Assembly (NCBI GenBank): GCA_026196575.1
Contig: JAPHSX010000029.1
Coordinates: forward strand, 1 to 64,000
DNA: 64,000 nt
Source: Gammaproteobacteria bacterium
GTDB lineage: Bacteria; Pseudomonadota; Gammaproteobacteria; Thiohalomonadales; Thiohalomonadaceae
Direction: 5' to 3'
The notes below the pieces were generated by a model. It worked only from the letters and a program-made list of their open reading frames with translations, did no database searches and had not been told where the DNA came from. Below are positions 7,330-27,854 of the stretch, one piece after another; the stretch's first letter is position 1; each line of letters starts with the position of its first letter. The position numbers and the translations under genes were made by a program.

Positions 7330-8894
7330 TAGATAATCACCACGAAGGTCGCCATTACCATCAGCCACAGGTAGCGTGGCCGTTCCAGCAGCTGTTCGAG
7401 CAGCTGCGCCTGCCGGCCGACACGGCCGATCATCCCCTGCAACCCCTCGCCGCCAAGCCGCAGGATGAGGTTCTCCTCCAGCCACGCCAGGCGCGAGGCG
7501 AGCCACTCCATGCCGTGCCCGGCCACGCCGTGACCCGTGCCGATCCCGCCCGTGCCGCCGCCACCATGCTGCCGCCGCTCCCACTCATTGAGCGAGGAGA
7601 CGGTATCGGCGCTCTCCATGCGGCCGATCAGCCGGTTCACCACCCGGGTATCGAAACGCTCCACCTCCTCGGCGAGTTGCAGGGTGGGGCGTACCAGCAG
7701 GCCGTCGCTCAGGTTTTCCAGCCAGAAACGCTCCCGCGCCGCGTGATAGATCCCACGGCGACGGCGTAACCATTCGGGGAGCGGGCGCGGCGGCTGGCTG
7801 ACCTGCTGCAGTATCGACGGCGCGCCGAGAAACTGCAGGGCACGCCAACTGGCGTGGGCCAGCAGATGCCAGCTTGCCAGCTCATACCAGCCGAGGCCGC
7901 AGGCGATGAACATCAGCCCCACCTGGGCGGTGGTGGCGAACATCAGCGCCGACTTTATATCGCTCTGCACCTGCGCGCCGAGCAGGCCGTAGAGTGCTGA
8001 GAGTACTCCCAGCAGTACCAGCAGGGCCGAGAGGGCCGGCACCTGCATGAAGAGCGGTTCCAGGCGGATTAACAGATAGACCCCGGCGTGCACCATCAGC
8101 GAGCCGTAAAAGATCGCCGAGGAGGGGGTCGGCCCCTCCAGCGCGCGGGCGATCCAGGGGGCGAATGGCAGCTGTGCCGACTTGGCCAGCGCGGCGACAA
8201 GAAAACCGCCCGCCAGCAGCCCCGCCGCCAGGCTCTCCAGCCCGCTGGCGCCACCGAGCAGGGCGGGCCACTCGGCGCTGCCGAACCAGTAAAAGGCGAG
8301 AAACAGTGCTAGCAGAAAACCGGCATCGCCGACACGGTTGGTGACAAAGGCGCGGGTGGCGTTGAGCGCGGCGGCGGGGCGCTCAAAGGAGTAGGCGATC
8401 AGCAGATAGGAGCTGACCCCCGCCAGCTCCCAGCCGACGAACATCAGCCACGCGCTGCCGGCGCAGACGATGAGCAGCATCGCCGTGTTAAACAGCAACA
8501 TCACCAGGAAAAAGCGCTGAAAACCGGCCTCGCGGTGCAGGTAGTTGACCGAGAAGCGCAGCGTGAGGAAGGCGATGAGCGCCACCAGCGTGCCCATTGC
8601 CAGCCCCAGGGGGTCGAGGGTGAAGCTGAGCAACAGTCGATAGTCGCCCACCACCAGCCACTCCCCCAGCACCACCTGCCCCGGGGTGGCGCCCGCCAGC
8701 AGCGCCTGCAGATCGAGCCCCAGCAGCCCCAGCAGCGACAGCCCCGAGGCAGAGAGGGCGAGGCGGCTGGTGCCCCGCTCCCCCGCCTCGCCGTGATTGC
8801 CGCCAAGGAGATACCCGACGCCAATGGCCAAGGCGGCCAGCAGCGGCAATACCACTGCCAGCACGACCACCGGCGCGATCCACTCAGCGCCCAT
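7329..8894 (-). CDS. dabB: DabB: NuoL-like proton-conducting subunit of the DAB inorganic-carbon transporter
   Basis: LMFVGWELAGVSSYLLIAYSFERPAAALNATRAFVTNRVGDAGFLLAL and ALAKSAQLPFAPWIARALEGPTPSSAIFYGSLMVHAGVYLLIR; overlaps dabA by 11 bp. Confidence 0.9.
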   Translation of the reverse strand: MGAEWIAPVVVLAVVLPLLAALAIGVGYLLGGNHGEAGERGTSRLALSASGLSLLGLLGLDLQALLAGATPGQVVLGEWLVVGDYRLLLSFTLDPLGLAMGTLVALIAFLTLRFSVNYLHREAGFQRFFLVMLLFNTAMLLIVCAGSAWLMFVGWELAGVSSYLLIAYSFERPAAALNATRAFVTNRVGDAGFLLALFLAFYWFGSAEWPALLGGASGLESLAAGLLAGGFLVAALAKSAQLPFAPWIARALEGPTPSSAIFYGSLMVHAGVYLLIRLEPLFMQVPALSALLVLLGVLSALYGLLGAQVQSDIKSALMFATTAQVGLMFIACGLGWYELASWHLLAHASWRALQFLGAPSILQQVSQPPRPLPEWLRRRRGIYHAARERFWLENLSDGLLVRPTLQLAEEVERFDTRVVNRLIGRMESADTVSSLNEWERRQHGGGGTGGIGTGHGVAGHGMEWLASRLAWLEENLILRLGGEGLQGMIGRVGRQAQLLEQLLERPRYLWLMVMATFVVII

Positions 8895-11800
8895 GACACA
8901 CCTCCGGCTGGTCGATCAGGCTCACCGCCAGCGGCTCGCGCCGTCCGCTGTACCAGTCGGTCGAGCAGCTCACCTGCGCCAGCGCCTGCCGCTCCCCCTC
9001 CCAGCGCCGCCAGCCGCTGGCGGGGTTGAAGAGATGAATCGCCTCGGAGTCGGGCTCCTTGGCGGCCAGCAGCAGCCACCCCTTGCCGATCAGCTCCTGC
9101 AGCGGCGGCTGGCGCTGGTAGATTTGGGTCAAGATCCCAGTGGTGGACTCCACCACCACCAGCAGGCGCATCGCCTCGTGGATCTCGACCATCTGCCACG
9201 GCAGCCCGGTGCGCAGGTCATCGTTCGCGCCGTGCATCACCCCCAGCAGACCGGTGATGTTGTGGGTCACCTTGGAGCCGCAGCCGTAGCCGGCGTTGTT
9301 GACGGTGGAGAAGTAGTACTCCAGGTTGATCCCCGCCCCCACCGGCCCGACCGCCAGCAGCACCGACTCCAGCACCCGGCCATCCGCATCCTGGGTGGGG
9401 TCGTAGGAGATCAGGAAGGGGCGGCGGTCGAAAAAGGCGCCACGGGTAACCGCGCGGCGCCCGACCACGGCGAAGGCGTTGGTGGCGTGGCCCAGCTCGG
9501 GGCGCGCCTGGCTGAAGTCGCGGGAGCGGCCGACGCTGTGGCGCCACGCCTGCTCGGGGGTGAGCCGCGCCGTATCGGGGGCCGAGGCGAAGCGGCGCGC
9601 CCGTTCGTGGGCCGAGAGGCGGGCGGCGCTATCGAGCACCTCGCGCAGCGCGGCAAACGGCTCGTGCAGTCCCTCGGGGACAAGGTCAGGGTCGTACCAC
9701 TCAATCGACTCATCACAGGTGTTGTGCTCCGCCCCCACCACCCAGCTATCCTCCGGCAGCAGTAGCCCGCGCGCAGCCAGCAGGGCACGCACCGCCGGAC
9801 GGTTGGCCATCGCCGCAAAGACGCGGGCGGTAGGGCCGCCGTGGCGCCCGGAGCAGGCGCCGCAATCGTAGGCGGAGAGGTGCGGATTGTTCTGGCTGCC
9901 GGAGCCGTGGCCCATCATCACGACCAGCTGCCCCAGCCCCTGGTGCAGACCGATGCCGCGCAGAAAACCCTCCACCCGATCCGCCTGCTCGCGGTCGCTA
10001 AAACCGAGGCGCGGCCGCTCGGGTGTGGGGGCGTCGGCCTCGGCGTCGACCTCGGCGGTAACAATGACACGGGTCGGCACCGCCGGTTCAAGGTGGCGCC
10101 GCCACCGCGCCAGCCACTCGCCGCTACGTTGCGGGGCCAGCACCCGGCCCAGCAGGGTGAGCAGCGCCAGCGGGGCGCTTAGCAGTTGCAGCAGCGCCGC
10201 CTCCAGCAGGCGTTGGCGCATCTCCTGATGCAACAGGTGTTGCAGCCTCAGGCGCCGGGTGCGCCCCCGGTTGTGTTGCACCAGCCGCTCCTCCGCCCCC
10301 GCCTGCGCCACCTCGTCAATCTGGTGTGCCGGGGTGACCACCACCGGGCAGAGTGGCGTCACCTGCTCATCGTCCAGCCCGCGCCAGTTGATCGGCACGC
10401 CGAAGAAGCCAGCGGCCCCCAGGGTCTCGATCTCGGGGTTGAGCTCCTCGAGGTGGCGCCGGATCCCCTCTTCGCGATCGTCGATGCAGAAGACCACCTG
10501 CGCGGCGGGGCGTGTCTGGCGGCTGGCCCAGCGGCCGCGTCCGTGGTTGAGGGTGAGGGCGTTGTAGATCTGCTCGTGGTAGTGGCGCTCATAGGCCTGC
10601 AACCAGAGAAAGCCGCTGCTCTCGTCGTCCAGCTCCAGGGCGCTGAAGAGGGCGGCCAGCTGCCCCTCATCCAGTGCGCGCAGCTCCTCGCCACTCAGCC
10701 CCAGGTGCTGCGCCAGCAAGAAGAGGCGCCAGCCGCTGTCTGCCACCGTGTAACCGCGCCGCGTGTCGGAGGCGGGGCTCTGCTTCCAGGTCCAGATCTT
10801 GTCGGCCAACCCCTGCCACTCCTGGTACTCGTCGCCCACCGCGTAGTGCCCCAGCAGGCGCTGCGCGGCGGTGACCAGATATTCGGGCAGCTGCTGGTTG
10901 AACAGGGTGTGGCGCACATAGAGTTCGGAGCGGCGGCGGTGGAAATACCAGTGCAGCACCTCGATGCTCGCCTCGATACGCCACAGCCGGCGGCAGAGGC
11001 GCTGCGCGTAAATACGCTCCAGCACCAGCCGCACCGCCAGGTAGTCCATCATCTCCACCCGCGCCGGGGTGAGTCCCTGATAGCCGGGGTGGCGGTGGCG
11101 CCACAGGAACATGCCGGACCAGCCAGGCAGCTCCAGCGCGAGCCGCTCCAGGTAGCTGCCCCATTGTGCTTCGGGCAGGCCGAGGCGCTGCAGCTCATCG
11201 CACACCGCGTCGAGCGCCTCATCCGGCAGCAGCTCCAGCTCGTCGCGCCACTCGGGCAGGTCGTCAAACAGCCAGCCGTGATCCTCCTCCGCGCTGTCTC
11301 GCCACTGCCGGTAGAAGCCCTCACCACGCACATCGCCATGCCAGGCGGCGAGCCCCTGATCAAGGTAGGCCCCGAGCTGGCGAATCAGTGCCGGGCGCAG
11401 CTCCTCCATAATGTCATGGCCGGTCAGCGCCAGCAGCAGACCGCGCAGGGTCAGCTCCTCGCCGACGCGCCCCAGCAACCCATCGAGCAGGCGGGTGGCG
11501 GCGCGGCGCATCAGGGTGTGGCACAGCGCCTCATCACCGCCAACCTGGTGGATGGCCTCGGGACCCGCCTCGCTCGCCGCCGCCCCCTGCACATCGAGCA
11601 GGGTGGCCGCCCCCTCGGCGCCAAGGTCGGTCAGCTCCTCCGGATGGAGCAGCTGGTGCTGCAGCCCCAGCCGCTGCAGCGCCGCCTGCCACAACTCGGC
11701 TACCGCCTGCGGCTCGGCCCGGCGACTGCGGTCGAGGATGCGTTTACGGCTGGCGTAGGCAACCCCGTCACGGAAGCGGCCCAATGCCTGCTGCTCCTCC

Positions 11801-12204
11801 ATCTGCCAGTTGAGCTGGCACTGGGTCAGCGCCTCGATCGGCTGCACCATCGCCGCCAGCACCACCTCGGCCTGGGTGAGTTGTAACCCCGCCGCCTCAA
11901 TCAGCGGGGTCTGATGATCAAAGCGCCCGTCCGCCGCCAGCACCGCCAGCAGATCGGCGTGGCTGATCCGCCCCTGCCGATAGTAGGCGCGGAACGCCTC
12001 GCCACTCTGGTAACCGTAGGCCCCGGTCACCTTGCGCGCCGCCGCCAGCGCCTCGGGAAAGTCGAGGTGCTGAAAGCCGTGCAGGGTGTTGTGGTGGATG
12101 AAGTCGCGGATCGGTGCCTGACCCGGCAGCAGGTGTTCCAGATGATCCACTGTCTGGCGCAGCGCCTCGCGGATGGTGCCGGGGATCGGGTGATCGTCGC
12201 TCAT
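8884..12204 (-). CDS. dabA: DabA (DUF2309/UPF0753) inorganic-carbon transporter subunit
   Basis: 1106 aa; VVFCIDDREEGIRRHLEE (Cys-x-Asp), MMGHGSGSQNNPHLSAYDCGACSGRHG (His and Cys): the beta-CA-like Zn/Asp ligand set known for DabA. Confidence 0.95.
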   Translation of the reverse strand: MSDDHPIPGTIREALRQTVDHLEHLLPGQAPIRDFIHHNTLHGFQHLDFPEALAAARKVTGAYGYQSGEAFRAYYRQGRISHADLLAVLAADGRFDHQTPLIEAAGLQLTQAEVVLAAMVQPIEALTQCQLNWQMEEQQALGRFRDGVAYASRKRILDRSRRAEPQAVAELWQAALQRLGLQHQLLHPEELTDLGAEGAATLLDVQGAAASEAGPEAIHQVGGDEALCHTLMRRAATRLLDGLLGRVGEELTLRGLLLALTGHDIMEELRPALIRQLGAYLDQGLAAWHGDVRGEGFYRQWRDSAEEDHGWLFDDLPEWRDELELLPDEALDAVCDELQRLGLPEAQWGSYLERLALELPGWSGMFLWRHRHPGYQGLTPARVEMMDYLAVRLVLERIYAQRLCRRLWRIEASIEVLHWYFHRRRSELYVRHTLFNQQLPEYLVTAAQRLLGHYAVGDEYQEWQGLADKIWTWKQSPASDTRRGYTVADSGWRLFLLAQHLGLSGEELRALDEGQLAALFSALELDDESSGFLWLQAYERHYHEQIYNALTLNHGRGRWASRQTRPAAQVVFCIDDREEGIRRHLEELNPEIETLGAAGFFGVPINWRGLDDEQVTPLCPVVVTPAHQIDEVAQAGAEERLVQHNRGRTRRLRLQHLLHQEMRQRLLEAALLQLLSAPLALLTLLGRVLAPQRSGEWLARWRRHLEPAVPTRVIVTAEVDAEADAPTPERPRLGFSDREQADRVEGFLRGIGLHQGLGQLVVMMGHGSGSQNNPHLSAYDCGACSGRHGGPTARVFAAMANRPAVRALLAARGLLLPEDSWVVGAEHNTCDESIEWYDPDLVPEGLHEPFAALREVLDSAARLSAHERARRFASAPDTARLTPEQAWRHSVGRSRDFSQARPELGHATNAFAVVGRRAVTRGAFFDRRPFLISYDPTQDADGRVLESVLLAVGPVGAGINLEYYFSTVNNAGYGCGSKVTHNITGLLGVMHGANDDLRTGLPWQMVEIHEAMRLLVVVESTTGILTQIYQRQPPLQELIGKGWLLLAAKEPDSEAIHLFNPASGWRRWEGERQALAQVSCSTDWYSGRREPLAVSLIDQPEVCHGR

Positions 12205-13679
12205 CGTATGGATTCTCCCATGCCGAGAAAGAGGGCACCCAGCTGTGCCACCGAGGCCCCCATCAGCTGCAGCAACGGCGCCGGCACAAAGCCGATGCCG
12301 AGAAAGCCGGCAGTCAGCGCCGAGGCGGCAAACAGCTCGCCGCGCTGCAGGTCGGCCACGCCCTGCATCGAGGGGCGCACCGGCCCGGTAAAGAGGTGGC
12401 CCACGGTGCGCACCGCGTAGGCGGCGCTAATCAGCACCCCGAGGCTGATCACCACCACCCACCAGCCCCAGCGCTCGAAGCCGCCAATAAGGACGTGCAG
12501 CTCGGCGACAAAGCCGGCGGTGCCCGGCATACCCACCGCGCCGATAAAGGCGAGGGAGGTGAAGAGGGCGAAGCGCGGGGTGATGCGCACCAGCGAGCTG
12601 TAGTCATTAATGTCGCGGCTGCCGGTGCGCTCGTAGAGCAGGCCGACCAGCAGAAACAGCGCCGCCGCCACCAAGCCATGGGCCACCATGTGCAACACCG
12701 CACCGGTCAGGCCGATGGTGGAGAGGGTGGCGATACCGAGCAGCACCACCCCCATGTGGCTGACCGAGGAGTAGGCGATCATCCGTTTCAGATCACTCTG
12801 GCGCCACGCCAGCAGGCCGCCATAGAGGATCGCCGTCAGCGCCAGCACCAGCAGCACCCCCTGCATCATCTGCGCCGCCTGCGGCAGCATGGCGCTGACG
12901 CGGATCAGGCCGTAGGCCCCCATCTTCAGCAGCGCCCCCGAGAGCAGGAGGGAGACCGGGGAGGGCGCCTCCACATGGGCCAGCGGCAGCCAGCCGTGCA
13001 GCGGGAAGATCGGCATCTTCACGCCGAAACCAAGCAGAAAACCGAGAAAGATCAGCAGCTGTGTCTCGGCCGAGAGCGCCTGGCCGCCGCGCAGTAGATC
13101 GGCGGCGGCAAAACTGTGGAGCCCCACCACATCGAACACCAGTAGCAGCGACAGCAGCATGAAGACCGAGCCGCCCATGGTGTAGAGCACAAAGTTGAGT
13201 GACGCCCCCTGCCCCCCCTTGCCGCCCCAACCGTTAATGAGGAAGAAGAGCGGGATCAGGGTCAGCTCCCAGAAGACATAGAACAGCAGCCAGTCCTGCG
13301 CCATGAAGACCCCCAGCATCGCCGCCTCCAGCAGCAGCAGCAGGGCGTAGTAACCCCTGGAGCGCTCCGTGATGGAGGCCGAGGCGAGGACGGCGATAAA
13401 ACTGAGCAGTGTCGCCAGCAGCACCATGGGGAAGGAGATACCGTCGATACCGAGGGCGAAATTGGTGCCCAGGCGCGGATTCCACGGCACCGTCACCGCG
13501 AACTGCATCGTCGCCAACGAGCTGTCGAAATGCCACAGCAGGACCCACGCCGGGACAAGCGTCAGCCCCGAGGCCATGATCGCCACCCGGCGCAGCAGCA
13601 CGCGATTGTCGCCCGGCAGCAGGGCGATGAGCAGCGCGCCGAGGAGCGGCGTCAGCAGCAGCAGTGTCAGGCTAGCCAT
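12201..13679 (-). CDS. NuoM-like complex I/Mrp-type subunit, first gene of the DAB operon
   Basis: 492 aa; LLFYVFWELTLIPLFFLINGWGGKGGQGASLNFVLYTMGGSVFMLL and FGVKMPIFPLHGWLPLAHVEAPSPVSLLLSGALLKMGAYGLIR; 4-bp overlap with dabA. Confidence 0.93.
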   Translation of the reverse strand: MASLTLLLLTPLLGALLIALLPGDNRVLLRRVAIMASGLTLVPAWVLLWHFDSSLATMQFAVTVPWNPRLGTNFALGIDGISFPMVLLATLLSFIAVLASASITERSRGYYALLLLLEAAMLGVFMAQDWLLFYVFWELTLIPLFFLINGWGGKGGQGASLNFVLYTMGGSVFMLLSLLLVFDVVGLHSFAAADLLRGGQALSAETQLLIFLGFLLGFGVKMPIFPLHGWLPLAHVEAPSPVSLLLSGALLKMGAYGLIRVSAMLPQAAQMMQGVLLVLALTAILYGGLLAWRQSDLKRMIAYSSVSHMGVVLLGIATLSTIGLTGAVLHMVAHGLVAAALFLLVGLLYERTGSRDINDYSSLVRITPRFALFTSLAFIGAVGMPGTAGFVAELHVLIGGFERWGWWVVVISLGVLISAAYAVRTVGHLFTGPVRPSMQGVADLQRGELFAASALTAGFLGIGFVPAPLLQLMGASVAQLGALFLGMGESIR

Positions 13680-23884: not shown

Positions 23885-24102
23885 TAGGGGGGCATGGCAA
23901 CCCACCCACGGGGTGGGTAACCATTCGGGATAGGGATTTCCCGAAATGCTTCACGAGGTAGCGGCACATTTGAACGCCTATTTGTATCGTGCTCAACACC
24001 TCACGACGAGACAGGCCACGCTTAACCGCGCGCTGCATGATTCCATCAATTGGCGTTACAGGTGCGGCACCTTTAATCATAATAACGTAACAAGGAAGCA
24101 CC

Positions 24103-26232
24103 ATGTCTAGCCCTCATGACCATCGTCAAAAGGACGATAACGCGTTCGCCCCTATTGCTCTGGCCTTTCTTCTGGCCGCATCACCTCTGGCATTTTCAGC
24201 CGAATCATCATCACCCCTCGCCCTTTTATTACAGCAGGGTGCTATAGCCGATTATGGTGCCTCCCCCTGGTATACGGAGACTATCACTCTGGGAAACAGT
24301 TCAATGAAACTGGCCCTGGACTCGGGTGCCAACTTTATCTGGGCTACCTCTGACCTCTGCACCACCGATGCGTGCAACAACCATCAAAAGGTAAGTACCA
24401 CTCAAACGGGATTTAGCTGGATCGATCAGACTACCTCCGTTCGCTCTTTCGGGCCCTGGGGGTCAATGACCACCGAAACCGGCAGTGTCACTTTTAATAC
24501 CACCGGAACGACCGGCATGAGCATGGATCTGTTTGCCTCGACCAACTATAGCGGTGGCCAGTTTAAATACCTGGCTTGGGGTGGTGGCATCGGTTTCCCC
24601 TCAACCAGTAGCGGACTGGAGCAGGGCAGCAGTTTCTATTTTGCCAACCTCTATCACAGCGGCGCCATTAGCCAGCCCAGCTTCTCTCTGGTGACAGAGC
24701 CGACCACCGGCTATGGTTTTATGCTGCTGGGTGGTGATGACCCCGCCCTCTATAAACCAGAAACCAGGATTGAGCTTAAACCCAACACCACCGGTCAGAT
24801 CGACTACATATGGGGCACCGATCTCTACTCTTTTGATGTGGGCAGTCAAAGCATTCCAGCGCTGACCAATGCCCGTTTCTACCTTGATAGCGGCTCGTCA
24901 CTATTCAAGGGCGATGAGATCTATATCACCCCCATTCTGCAACAACTGGTCGCTCTTACAGATAAGAGCGGCAAGCTGATCTTTGATAAGGTCTATGACG
25001 CCGATAAGAAGTGGGTAAGCCTTGTCTATGCCAATGGTCAGGGGCCGGGTCACTATACCGGCATGCTCCCCGATATCACCCTGACCCTTGGCCAGAGTTG
25101 TGCTGGCAGTAGTGGCCAATCTGCGCAGATTACCCTAAGCCCTGCGCAGTACTCATACCTTGTTGCGGAGGGCGACCGGGCCGGTAGCTGGGTGCCTGCT
25201 TTTAGTGTACTCAATGGCGTTGGCGGTCTGCTTGTCGGCTCTACCTTTATGGACCTGCTCTACACCAACTTTAACTACGTGGATAATGGCACGGGTACAT
25301 TAACTCAGGGGAATATGTACCTTTACCAGAAATCTACCGGTTCGAGCCCTGCGCAGATGAGCTGTGTCGCTACGCCGCACCCAATTGAGGGGACCTGGGT
25401 CAACTCATACTGCTCTCAGGTCACTCTCGCCCTGACGCCTGATAATTCCATTATTGGCACCTACACTTCGTATACCGGTTCTACCGGATCATCCAATGTG
25501 GTTGGCTGGCTTTCTGGCTCACCAGTTAATGTTAATCACCAGCAGCTTCCGGTCAATCCAGAGGGCACCCCAATTGCACTGGGGATACAGTGGCGTCTGA
25601 TTAACGACCCAGTTAGTGCTGCGGATGGTTCGTGGCACTGGGTTTCAAATTTTTCAGGGCAATTTCATCCTCAACAGATCGTCCGTGAAGGGGGACAGCA
25701 GGACTACCAGCTTAACCAGACACTGGAGGTGACCAACGGACTACTTGCCACCGCGACTGTTGCCGGACTGACCAGCAAGGTGCCACAAATGTGGCCGCAA
25801 ACGCTGACCTTTGGCAGGATCCCTCCCCCCTACTGTGAGGCCGTCACGCCACCACCGGCCATCCCCTTCAGTGGTACCGCAACGGACAATATTTCGGGTA
25901 CATGGCGCTCGGCCTCTGGCGCTATGCTGACACTGATTGCTGATATTGCTAGCGGTAACGTTTTTGGCAACTACGCCAGCGGCACTCAAACCTATGATGT
26001 GATTGGCCTTGTGGATGCCATTACCGCTACTCCAGGATCAACCCTGGTAGAGCAGGGGCTTGCACTGGCGATAAGAAATACAACGGGTGATGTGTTCTCT
26101 ATGTCTGGCGGTGTCAACCTTGCCGCAACAAACACCATGACGCTATGGGTGGATGATCTGACCGTAACCACATGGACCGACCGTTTTATGCAATCGGATT
26201 ATGACAAGACGACATGGAGTCGGGTCCAATAG
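24103..26232 (+). CDS. Secreted pepsin-like (A1) aspartic protease with two C-terminal avidin-like domains
   Basis: Signal peptide; LALDSGANFIWATSDLCTTDACNNH (first catalytic Asp plus pepsin-type C-x4-C loop), SFGPWGSMTTETGSVTF (flap), ARFYLDSGSSLFKG (second Asp), GGLLVGSTFMDLLYTNFNYVDNGTGTL; then IEGTWVNSYCSQVTL...IGTYTS...IALGIQWR...FSGQF and ISGTWRSASGAMLTL...FGNYASG avidin-like repeats. Confidence 0.85.
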   Translation: MSSPHDHRQKDDNAFAPIALAFLLAASPLAFSAESSSPLALLLQQGAIADYGASPWYTETITLGNSSMKLALDSGANFIWATSDLCTTDACNNHQKVSTTQTGFSWIDQTTSVRSFGPWGSMTTETGSVTFNTTGTTGMSMDLFASTNYSGGQFKYLAWGGGIGFPSTSSGLEQGSSFYFANLYHSGAISQPSFSLVTEPTTGYGFMLLGGDDPALYKPETRIELKPNTTGQIDYIWGTDLYSFDVGSQSIPALTNARFYLDSGSSLFKGDEIYITPILQQLVALTDKSGKLIFDKVYDADKKWVSLVYANGQGPGHYTGMLPDITLTLGQSCAGSSGQSAQITLSPAQYSYLVAEGDRAGSWVPAFSVLNGVGGLLVGSTFMDLLYTNFNYVDNGTGTLTQGNMYLYQKSTGSSPAQMSCVATPHPIEGTWVNSYCSQVTLALTPDNSIIGTYTSYTGSTGSSNVVGWLSGSPVNVNHQQLPVNPEGTPIALGIQWRLINDPVSAADGSWHWVSNFSGQFHPQQIVREGGQQDYQLNQTLEVTNGLLATATVAGLTSKVPQMWPQTLTFGRIPPPYCEAVTPPPAIPFSGTATDNISGTWRSASGAMLTLIADIASGNVFGNYASGTQTYDVIGLVDAITATPGSTLVEQGLALAIRNTTGDVFSMSGGVNLAATNTMTLWVDDLTVTTWTDRFMQSDYDKTTWSRVQ

Positions 26233-26282: not shown

Positions 26283-27854
26283 TTAAAGCGAAGAGACCCG
26301 CTCTACCATGGCTAATAGAAGGGTAATATCGATGGGCTTGGTAATATATTCATCAAATCCATCCTGCAACGCTTTTGTTTTCTCCTCTGCCGTTGCATGC
26401 CCAGTCAGTGCCGTGATGTAACTTTTACTGCGCCCGGTTGATGCCTCAAATTTTCTGATCTGCCGCATCGCAGTATGCCCATCCATCTCGGGCATCTGGA
26501 TATCCATCAGCACCAGATCATAATGTGCACCTTGATACTGCTCCAGCGCCTGCCTGCCGTTACCCGCTACATCGATGGTGTGCGGAAAATCTTTGAGAAA
26601 TGATTTGATAACGAAGACGTTAAGATTATTGTCATCTGTCAACAGAATGCGCAGTACGCGTTGGGCACCCTGGGGTACAACCTTCAAGCTATTTTCACTA
26701 TCCTCCTTAGGCTCTGAAATTCCTTCAGTAAACGGTAGCTCAATAGTAAATGTGGTGCCTTCGCCAACGATGCTTGATACCTCAATCCGTCCCGCCATAA
26801 GCTCAACCAGCTGCGAGACAATGGAGAGCCCCAGACCGAGACCACCATATTCACGGGTAATTGAGTTGTCTGCCTGCTCGTAGGGTTGGAATATGGTCTC
26901 TATCTTTTCGGCAGGTATTCCCATGCCGGTGTCGCTGACCATAAAGCGGAGGGTTGCCGGCCTCTCCTGCAGCAGCTGGACATGCAATGTAATGTGACCT
27001 GCGCTGGTAAATTTGATGGCGTTGTAACCCAGGTTGATCAGCACCTGTTGCAGTCGCGAGTGATCGGTAATTATTATTTCGGGAAGGTTTTCGCCCTTCT
27101 CCAGGCGGAATTCCAGCCCCTTTTTACCAGCATCACAACGGAGGACATTGGCGGTATTTTCCAGTAAAAAGATGAGATCTCCCGCACTCTGCTGCAACGA
27201 GTATTGGCCGTTTACCAGGCGTGCAACATCCAGGATATCTTCGACTGTGGTATGGAGAATATTGGTGGCGGCACGCGCTACCCCAAGATATTCTTTCTGT
27301 TGTTCCGACAGCTCTGTTTTGCTCAGCATGTCGAGCATACCCATGATGGCCGTAAAGGGGGTGCGGATCTCATGACTGGTGGCTGCAATGAATTGGTCCT
27401 TGGCCTTGCTGCCCGCCTCTGCCCTTTCCAGCGCGCGCTCCAGTTTCTCCTCGCTGTTGCGAATATCGGTAACGTCCCTGGCCAGGGCCAGTGAGCCTGT
27501 CACCTCACCCTGCGAATCGGTTAAATTGTGTGAATTCCAGGAGAGCACGCGATGGCTGCCATCCTTGCACTGGATGGTGGTTTCGAAGTCCTCGATCTCC
27601 TTACCCTGCTCGATAATTTCGAGCGCCCTGGCGAAGACGAAGTTTCGATACGCCTCATCCGGGTATAACAACTCCCAGATGTTCTCCTTTCCAAGAACCT
27701 CTTCCTTGCGGTAGCCGCTGATGCGCTCAGCCGCCCTGTTCCACATAACCACCCTGGCATTATTATCCAGCGCATTCAGCCACATGGCCGTATTATTCAT
27801 AATAATACGGTGAAACTCTTTGAGTGTAGCTGAATCTATATTACTGTCTGTCAC
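26283..27854 (-). CDS. Hybrid sensor histidine kinase (PAS-HisKA-HATPase-REC)
   Basis: PAS region NARVVMWNRAAERISGY; KDQFIAATSHEIRTPFTAIMGMLD (H box); QVLINLGYNAIKFT; GLGLGLSIVSQLVELMAGRIEV; REC LVLMDIQMPEMDGHTAMRQIR. Confidence 0.95.
   Translation of the reverse strand: MTDSNIDSATLKEFHRIIMNNTAMWLNALDNNARVVMWNRAAERISGYRKEEVLGKENIWELLYPDEAYRNFVFARALEIIEQGKEIEDFETTIQCKDGSHRVLSWNSHNLTDSQGEVTGSLALARDVTDIRNSEEKLERALERAEAGSKAKDQFIAATSHEIRTPFTAIMGMLDMLSKTELSEQQKEYLGVARAATNILHTTVEDILDVARLVNGQYSLQQSAGDLIFLLENTANVLRCDAGKKGLEFRLEKGENLPEIIITDHSRLQQVLINLGYNAIKFTSAGHITLHVQLLQERPATLRFMVSDTGMGIPAEKIETIFQPYEQADNSITREYGGLGLGLSIVSQLVELMAGRIEVSSIVGEGTTFTIELPFTEGISEPKEDSENSLKVVPQGAQRVLRILLTDDNNLNVFVIKSFLKDFPHTIDVAGNGRQALEQYQGAHYDLVLMDIQMPEMDGHTAMRQIRKFEASTGRSKSYITALTGHATAEEKTKALQDGFDEYITKPIDITLLLAMVERVSSL

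Follow-up and report, generated by a model that had tools for sequence, protein, structure and literature searches.

Protease-avidin fusions were found by sequence in the Extended and beta6 avidin clades by Laitinen et al. 2021 (PMC8033661), who presented a homology model and no experiment, and who noted in some Extended-clade members a C-terminal extension of ~150 residues with no InterPro or CDD assignment. In the later papers found, within an incomplete coverage of the literature, there was no follow-up of these fusions. On the protease side, the pepsin homologue of Marinomonas sp. MWYL1 is an A1 enzyme with Phe at position 75 and Ser for Asp303, for which no signal peptide was reported (PMC2761423). 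Marinomonas-type A1 enzymes were thought probably inactive on account of the Tyr75 to Phe change and an altered first psi-loop motif (Rawlings and Bateman 2009, PMC2761423); according to the same paper, Phe75 is a common replacement of the flap Tyr for which activity has not been demonstrated in any natural enzyme, while a Tyr75Phe mutant of rhizopuspepsin, cited there, retained some, weakened activity. Shewasin A and D (PMC4814920), in turn, are bacterial pepsin-type A1 peptidases with an Asp-Asp dyad that are biochemically active and mainly cytoplasmic.

The window, by which we mean the whole 64-kb stretch of DNA that was analysed, encodes a protein in which an A1 domain precedes avidin within the same chain, as in the fusions of 2021; the first-pass annotation, which knew of no described A1-avidin fusion, had thus overlooked an architecture already in print. 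The 709-aa open reading frame that it had read is present at 24103-26232 and free of internal stops, and the full protein is modelled by AlphaFold2 (AF2) with a pLDDT of 82.4 and a pTM of 0.78. While the fusion itself has been known since 2021, the present analysis adds a second barrel, a secreted clade, a pattern of fusion, adjacency and loss, and a hydantoinase neighbourhood. The features of the locus are as follows.

24092..24098, + strand: Shine-Dalgarno-like AAGGAAG with the ATG 4 nt downstream (sequence read directly)
24103..26232, + strand: fusion gene, 709-aa A1 peptidase, avidin barrel 1, avidin barrel 2 (ORF, Pfam, AF2)
24103..24201, + strand: probable Sec signal peptide, residues 1-33, AFSA/E34 (hydropathy)
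24220..25374, + strand: A1 (pepsin-type) bilobal peptidase domain, residues 40-424 (PF00026, Foldseek, motifs in 24 relatives)
25384..25818, + strand: avidin barrel 1, residues 428-572, biotin-type pocket kept (PF01382, profile against PDB, invariant columns)
25885..26229, + strand: avidin barrel 2, residues 595-709, pocket lost (AF2, PDB matches, profile-profile comparison, pocket columns)
26283..27854, - strand: PAS hybrid histidine kinase-REC, convergent with the fusion gene (Pfam, low GC)

Relatives and inheritance of the two modules

The family is rare, being present in 5/399 genomes of an even sample of the phylum; a search of the class genomes with PF01382 alone gave no match even in the window genome and has no bearing on absence. 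A Mariprofundus MAG encodes a homologue of 752 aa with the same three parts, the best segment of which is 44% identical. In G012, a genome of the same family as the window's, we found a fusion of 494 aa with a single avidin (P0003, L002; PF01382 E value 1.7e-20), which shares with the window protein an FGPWG-type A1 domain fused to avidin but differs by its one barrel, a retained Trp at the W120 position and the lack of a signal peptide. A further relative (G022) is a protease alone, with a signal peptide. The three-part fusion is present in four Pseudomonas-type genomes and the tandem avidin only in a fifth, whereas in a Marinomonas-like genus the A1 gene is followed on the same strand, 2-55 nt away, by a separate tandem-avidin gene in 16 of 51 species. 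The labels "Marinomonas-like" and "Pseudomonas-type" are inferred from protein length, D49/F95 and the literature; the 51-species genus is presumably Marinomonas, as the D49 and F95 described for MWYL1 recur in its 406-aa G804 protein.

Whether built from the A1 domain or from avidin, the tree shows the same three groups, namely the window with Mariprofundus, the Pseudomonas-type members and the Marinomonas-like members; its branches are long and its deeper nodes are weakly supported. In one Marinomonas-like genome (G769) the A1-avidin pair has been deleted, and what remains is the beginning of A1 and the last part of avidin, while in another (G791) only avidin fragments are left; in both cases the neighbouring kinase is retained.

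L089 5449-5825 and L037 1199-1614: deletion scars, A1 and/or avidin remnants beside the retained kinase

As read from these sequences, the A1 and avidin modules are co-inherited, either fused or adjacent, and can be lost together.

The A1 domain and export

Residues 57-395 match PF00026 with an E value of 1.1e-15 and pass the curated Pfam cut-off, and the whole AF2 model matches chymosin, renin and pepsin in Foldseek (E about 1e-18), which together give the bilobal pepsin fold by which peptidase family A1 is recognised. The catalytic residues are D73 and D262, and sequence and relatives agree with the first-pass annotation on the place of both, as well as on that of C86/C91. In 24/24 relatives, at identities as low as about 30%, both aspartates sit within D[S/T]G. 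F116 replaces the pepsin flap Tyr75, hence the usual flap Tyr of A1 is absent, and all relatives compared have the FG[P/S]WG flap motif with Phe in the Tyr place. The second psi loop keeps the hydrophobic-hydrophobic-Gly motif as LVG; the first reads GIG instead, in a region where alignment is uncertain also in the literature (PMC2761423), and G-G-[I/F] among relatives with one exception. The "full bilobal A1 pattern" announced earlier is therefore borne out for the fold and the two aspartates but not for the flap or the first psi loop. The window protein shares the Phe75-type A1 domain and the Ser for Asp303 with the MWYL1 homologue, and the dyad with the shewasins, from which it differs in that these have a Tyr flap (Y69) and no reported avidin. 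Since both aspartates persist, we lean towards the A1 lobe being an active, possibly slow, acid protease.

Of 14 N-termini compared, only those of the window protein and its Mariprofundus and G022 relatives are signal-like, with a best 15-residue hydropathy of 2.07, 2.19 and 2.53, respectively, whereas the others do not exceed 0.75; the n-region of the window protein has a net charge of -1. Secretion, which had been proposed for the window protein, is thus probable, and is not general in the family because by hydropathy most of these N-termini, including the Pseudomonas-type and Marinomonas-like ones, have no signal peptide. Concomitantly, cysteines equivalent to C333 and C421 are common to the same three proteins, and C437 and C578 to the window and Mariprofundus proteins, which would fit export. 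The window protein is probably a member of a secreted, cysteine-rich clade with Mariprofundus, and its likely secretion together with two extra cysteine pairs sets it apart from the fusions of Laitinen et al.

The two avidin barrels

The first-pass annotation had described several biotin-binding domains from residue 425 on. Both parts of this region have an avidin fold, yet only the first keeps the pocket. In a single-sequence Pfam search barrel 1 falls just short of recognition, with a PF01382 match at residues 428-473 of 23.9 bits against a cut-off of 24 (E value 5.8e-5); a profile built from the window protein and five relatives, in contrast, finds streptavidin, avidin and tamavidin structures at E values of 8e-15 to 4e-9, so that the match is not due to chance. 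The AF2 model of this part has eight strands, as do the barrels of streptavidin and rhizavidin. We aligned it to streptavidin, avidin and rhizavidin. N434, S438, Y454, S456 and W497 are indeed the counterparts of N23, S27, Y43, S45 and W79 of streptavidin, as had been read, and these ureido-binding residues are kept in 20/20 members with pairwise identity down to 26%; rhizavidin has Asn for S45. Invariant columns are concentrated in the pocket (9/12, against 7/124 elsewhere; Fisher p 6e-8, kinship ignored). Phe at position 92 (F517) also agrees with the first reading. In contrast, W564, which had been taken for W120, aligns with L124, and the W120 column holds Ser558; W120 is missing in all members except the single-avidin protein of G012.

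The remainder of the pocket departs from streptavidin. S88, which contacts the carboxylate in streptavidin, is replaced by Trp in 20/20 members (W513 in the window), T90 by Ser and W108 by Asn, His or Tyr (N545), and the column aligned with D128 does not keep the Asp (L568). Not all avidins keep the S88, W108, W120 and D128 of streptavidin. Judged by the known roles of the streptavidin pocket residues, barrel 1 would recognise the ureido head as streptavidin does and not the tail end. It probably binds biotin or a biotinyl group, and because of the changes at S88, W108 and D128 its affinity or its ligand may differ from those for biotin. Unlike streptavidin and rhizavidin, barrel 1 also shares its chain with a protease and with a barrel devoid of the pocket.

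Residues 595-709 match PF01382 only weakly (E value 0.13), while a profile made for this part from five relatives matches barrel 1 at a probability of 96.4 (E value 1.2e-9). When modelled alone by AlphaFold2, this part forms eight strands (pLDDT 87, pTM 0.79), and the top 50 PDB matches of the model are all streptavidin, with TM scores of 0.68-0.78. The pocket residues are lost and their columns are variable in 17 members, on which ground barrel 2 was rejected as a biotin binder. The W120 position, however, is Tyr or Phe in 17/17 members (F695 in the window), and a HMMER alignment of the barrel-2 profile with streptavidin agrees on an aromatic residue there; the loop that carries F695 is modelled at low confidence, with a pLDDT under 50 in the full-length model. 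In streptavidin, W120 is the Trp that caps the biotin of the neighbouring subunit. Tentatively, barrel 2 would pack on barrel 1 and may supply an aromatic lid through F695. Two other barrel-2 residues, D638 (26014-26016) and Q651 (26053-26055), are invariant in 17 relatives within GFTD and LQS motifs; they have no evident role in the lost pocket, and an interface or another ligand are options. A second, pocketless barrel is likely to be the identity of the ~150-residue C-terminal extensions reported by Laitinen et al. 2021.

Gene neighbourhoods and proposed role

At a GC of 0.53 and a GC3 of 0.57, the fusion gene stands out from most surrounding genes (about 0.65 and 0.85), as does the convergent kinase gene (0.51, 0.59), on which grounds both may be recent arrivals. 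Only short or imperfect repeat pairs were found to bound the fusion gene, and no phage records were found. The kinase, for its part, could also be native to the family of the window genome, since in same-family G005 a PAS part is 74% identical to that of the window kinase over residues 3-150, on a contig of 50% GC. In Marinomonas-like loci (L017, L021-L036, L055, L056) the order is A1, tandem avidin, PAS hybrid histidine kinase and then, where read, REC-GGDEF; the kinase follows A1-avidin in 16/16 carriers and is found in 6/35 non-carriers, two of which have more distant copies. This conserved gene order would be a signalling link for an avidin. PAS signalling genes also adjoin the A1-avidin gene in G012. 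We did not accept the window kinase as an established partner, as the genome has 51 matches to it and the adjacency could be chance; the shared low GC and the Marinomonas-like cassette nevertheless keep it as a possible partner of the fusion protein.

A different neighbourhood is seen in five Pseudomonas-type loci, where HyuB and an MFS transporter, and also HyuA where read, adjoin the fusion or tandem avidin, the fusion standing at the end of the cluster. An Asp/Glu/hydantoin racemase is present in four of these loci, and in the fifth a longer antisense ORF hides the stretch. The row on a Novosphingobium plasmid is tandem avidin, LuxR, TonB receptor, racemase, HyuA, HyuB and Xaa-Pro peptidase, and an M24 peptidase occurs in 3/6 loci when this plasmid is counted with the five. 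On the same plasmid (NZ_CP039697.1, 355000-375000, L094), two hydantoinase/racemase/TonB/LuxR sets lie abreast, one of them with the tandem avidin. The solitary A1 gene of G022 is divergent from HyuA-HyuB. The HyuB near A1 or avidin is the sole one of the genome in G709, G603 and G022, whereas the sole HyuB of the window genome is on another contig (C68) and none was found in the Marinomonas-like genomes tested. The head of biotin is a cyclic ureide, which makes the hydantoinase neighbourhood suggestive. BioB was found in all avidin carriers tested, which therefore probably make biotin; the A1-only G022 gave no BioB match over the cut-off. Other neighbours include an AAA_16-TPR ATPase of 892 aa, 32 nt after the fusion gene of Mariprofundus (L003 12145-14823), and an AAA_16 LuxR protein of 915 aa directly after the Novosphingobium avidin. 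Elsewhere in the window, a large DUF2309-like gene (8887-12204) lies beside a NuoL-like gene (12204-13679) as judged by eye, perhaps a DAB-type inorganic carbon pump.

We propose, with a probability of about 0.45, that the window protein is a secreted A1 aspartic endopeptidase whose C-terminal tandem-avidin module sets where or when the protease acts. Barrel 1 would hold biotin or a biotinyl group, barrel 2 would be a pocketless scaffold packing on it with F695 as a lid, like W120 of the neighbouring subunit in streptavidin, and the A1 lobe, with both Asp kept, would cut a protein substrate. That ligand binding by the avidin module would tether the protease to a biotinylated protein, or switch it on, is a more tentative step. 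Capture of biotin or of biotinylated protein, and release of a biotin sponge, the roles guessed at in the first-pass annotation, are both compatible with the present data. A narrower version, in which barrel 1 would read protein-attached biotin under a same-chain lid and A1 would cut the biotinylated target, draws on the kept ureido residues and on the invariant Trp in place of the carboxylate contact S88, and we think it a long shot.

The avidin could instead be the active part, as a biotin-sequestering weapon or as self-protection against biotin-pathway antimetabolites, with the protease processing, releasing or protecting it. Biotin is sequestered by streptavidin, which also binds acidomycin (PMC13336041), the window protein is likely to be secreted and BioB accompanies avidin in the carriers tested but not A1 alone in G022; such a role is nevertheless unlikely, given that a signal peptide is lacking in the Pseudomonas-type and Marinomonas-like members, that the protease has retained both Asp across wide divergence and that no antimetabolite genes were recognised by eye in the 64-kb window. 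Doubtful, too, is a non-cutting A1 domain that would act, for the two avidin barrels, as a scaffold that binds peptides: the Phe flap and the G-I-G of the first psi loop are the type for which inactivity was predicted (Rawlings and Bateman 2009, PMC2761423), but both Asp in 24/24 sequences, the kept second psi-loop motif and the residual activity of Tyr75Phe rhizopuspepsin speak for cutting. The hydantoinase clusters raise the idea that the pocket holds biotin or another cyclic ureide, which A1 would free from a peptide and HyuA/HyuB, racemase and transporter would process. This finds some footing in the recurrence of HyuB, with MFS transporter or racemase genes in Pseudomonas-type and Novosphingobium loci and with HyuA in G022, at times as the genome's sole HyuB, yet HyuAB has many substrates, and the placement of HyuB in the window genome and its absence from the tested Marinomonas-like ones render it improbable. 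The likeliest reading of the fusion protein is an aspartic peptidase directed to biotin or biotinyl groups.

This family joins bacterial avidins and bacterial pepsins through fusion, adjacency and joint loss. It suggests that the extension of a known avidin clade is a dead second barrel, and the window protein is a probably secreted member with disulphides and a pocket open to direct study. If it is true that the avidin guides or gates the protease, the family would provide a natural ligand-directed protease.
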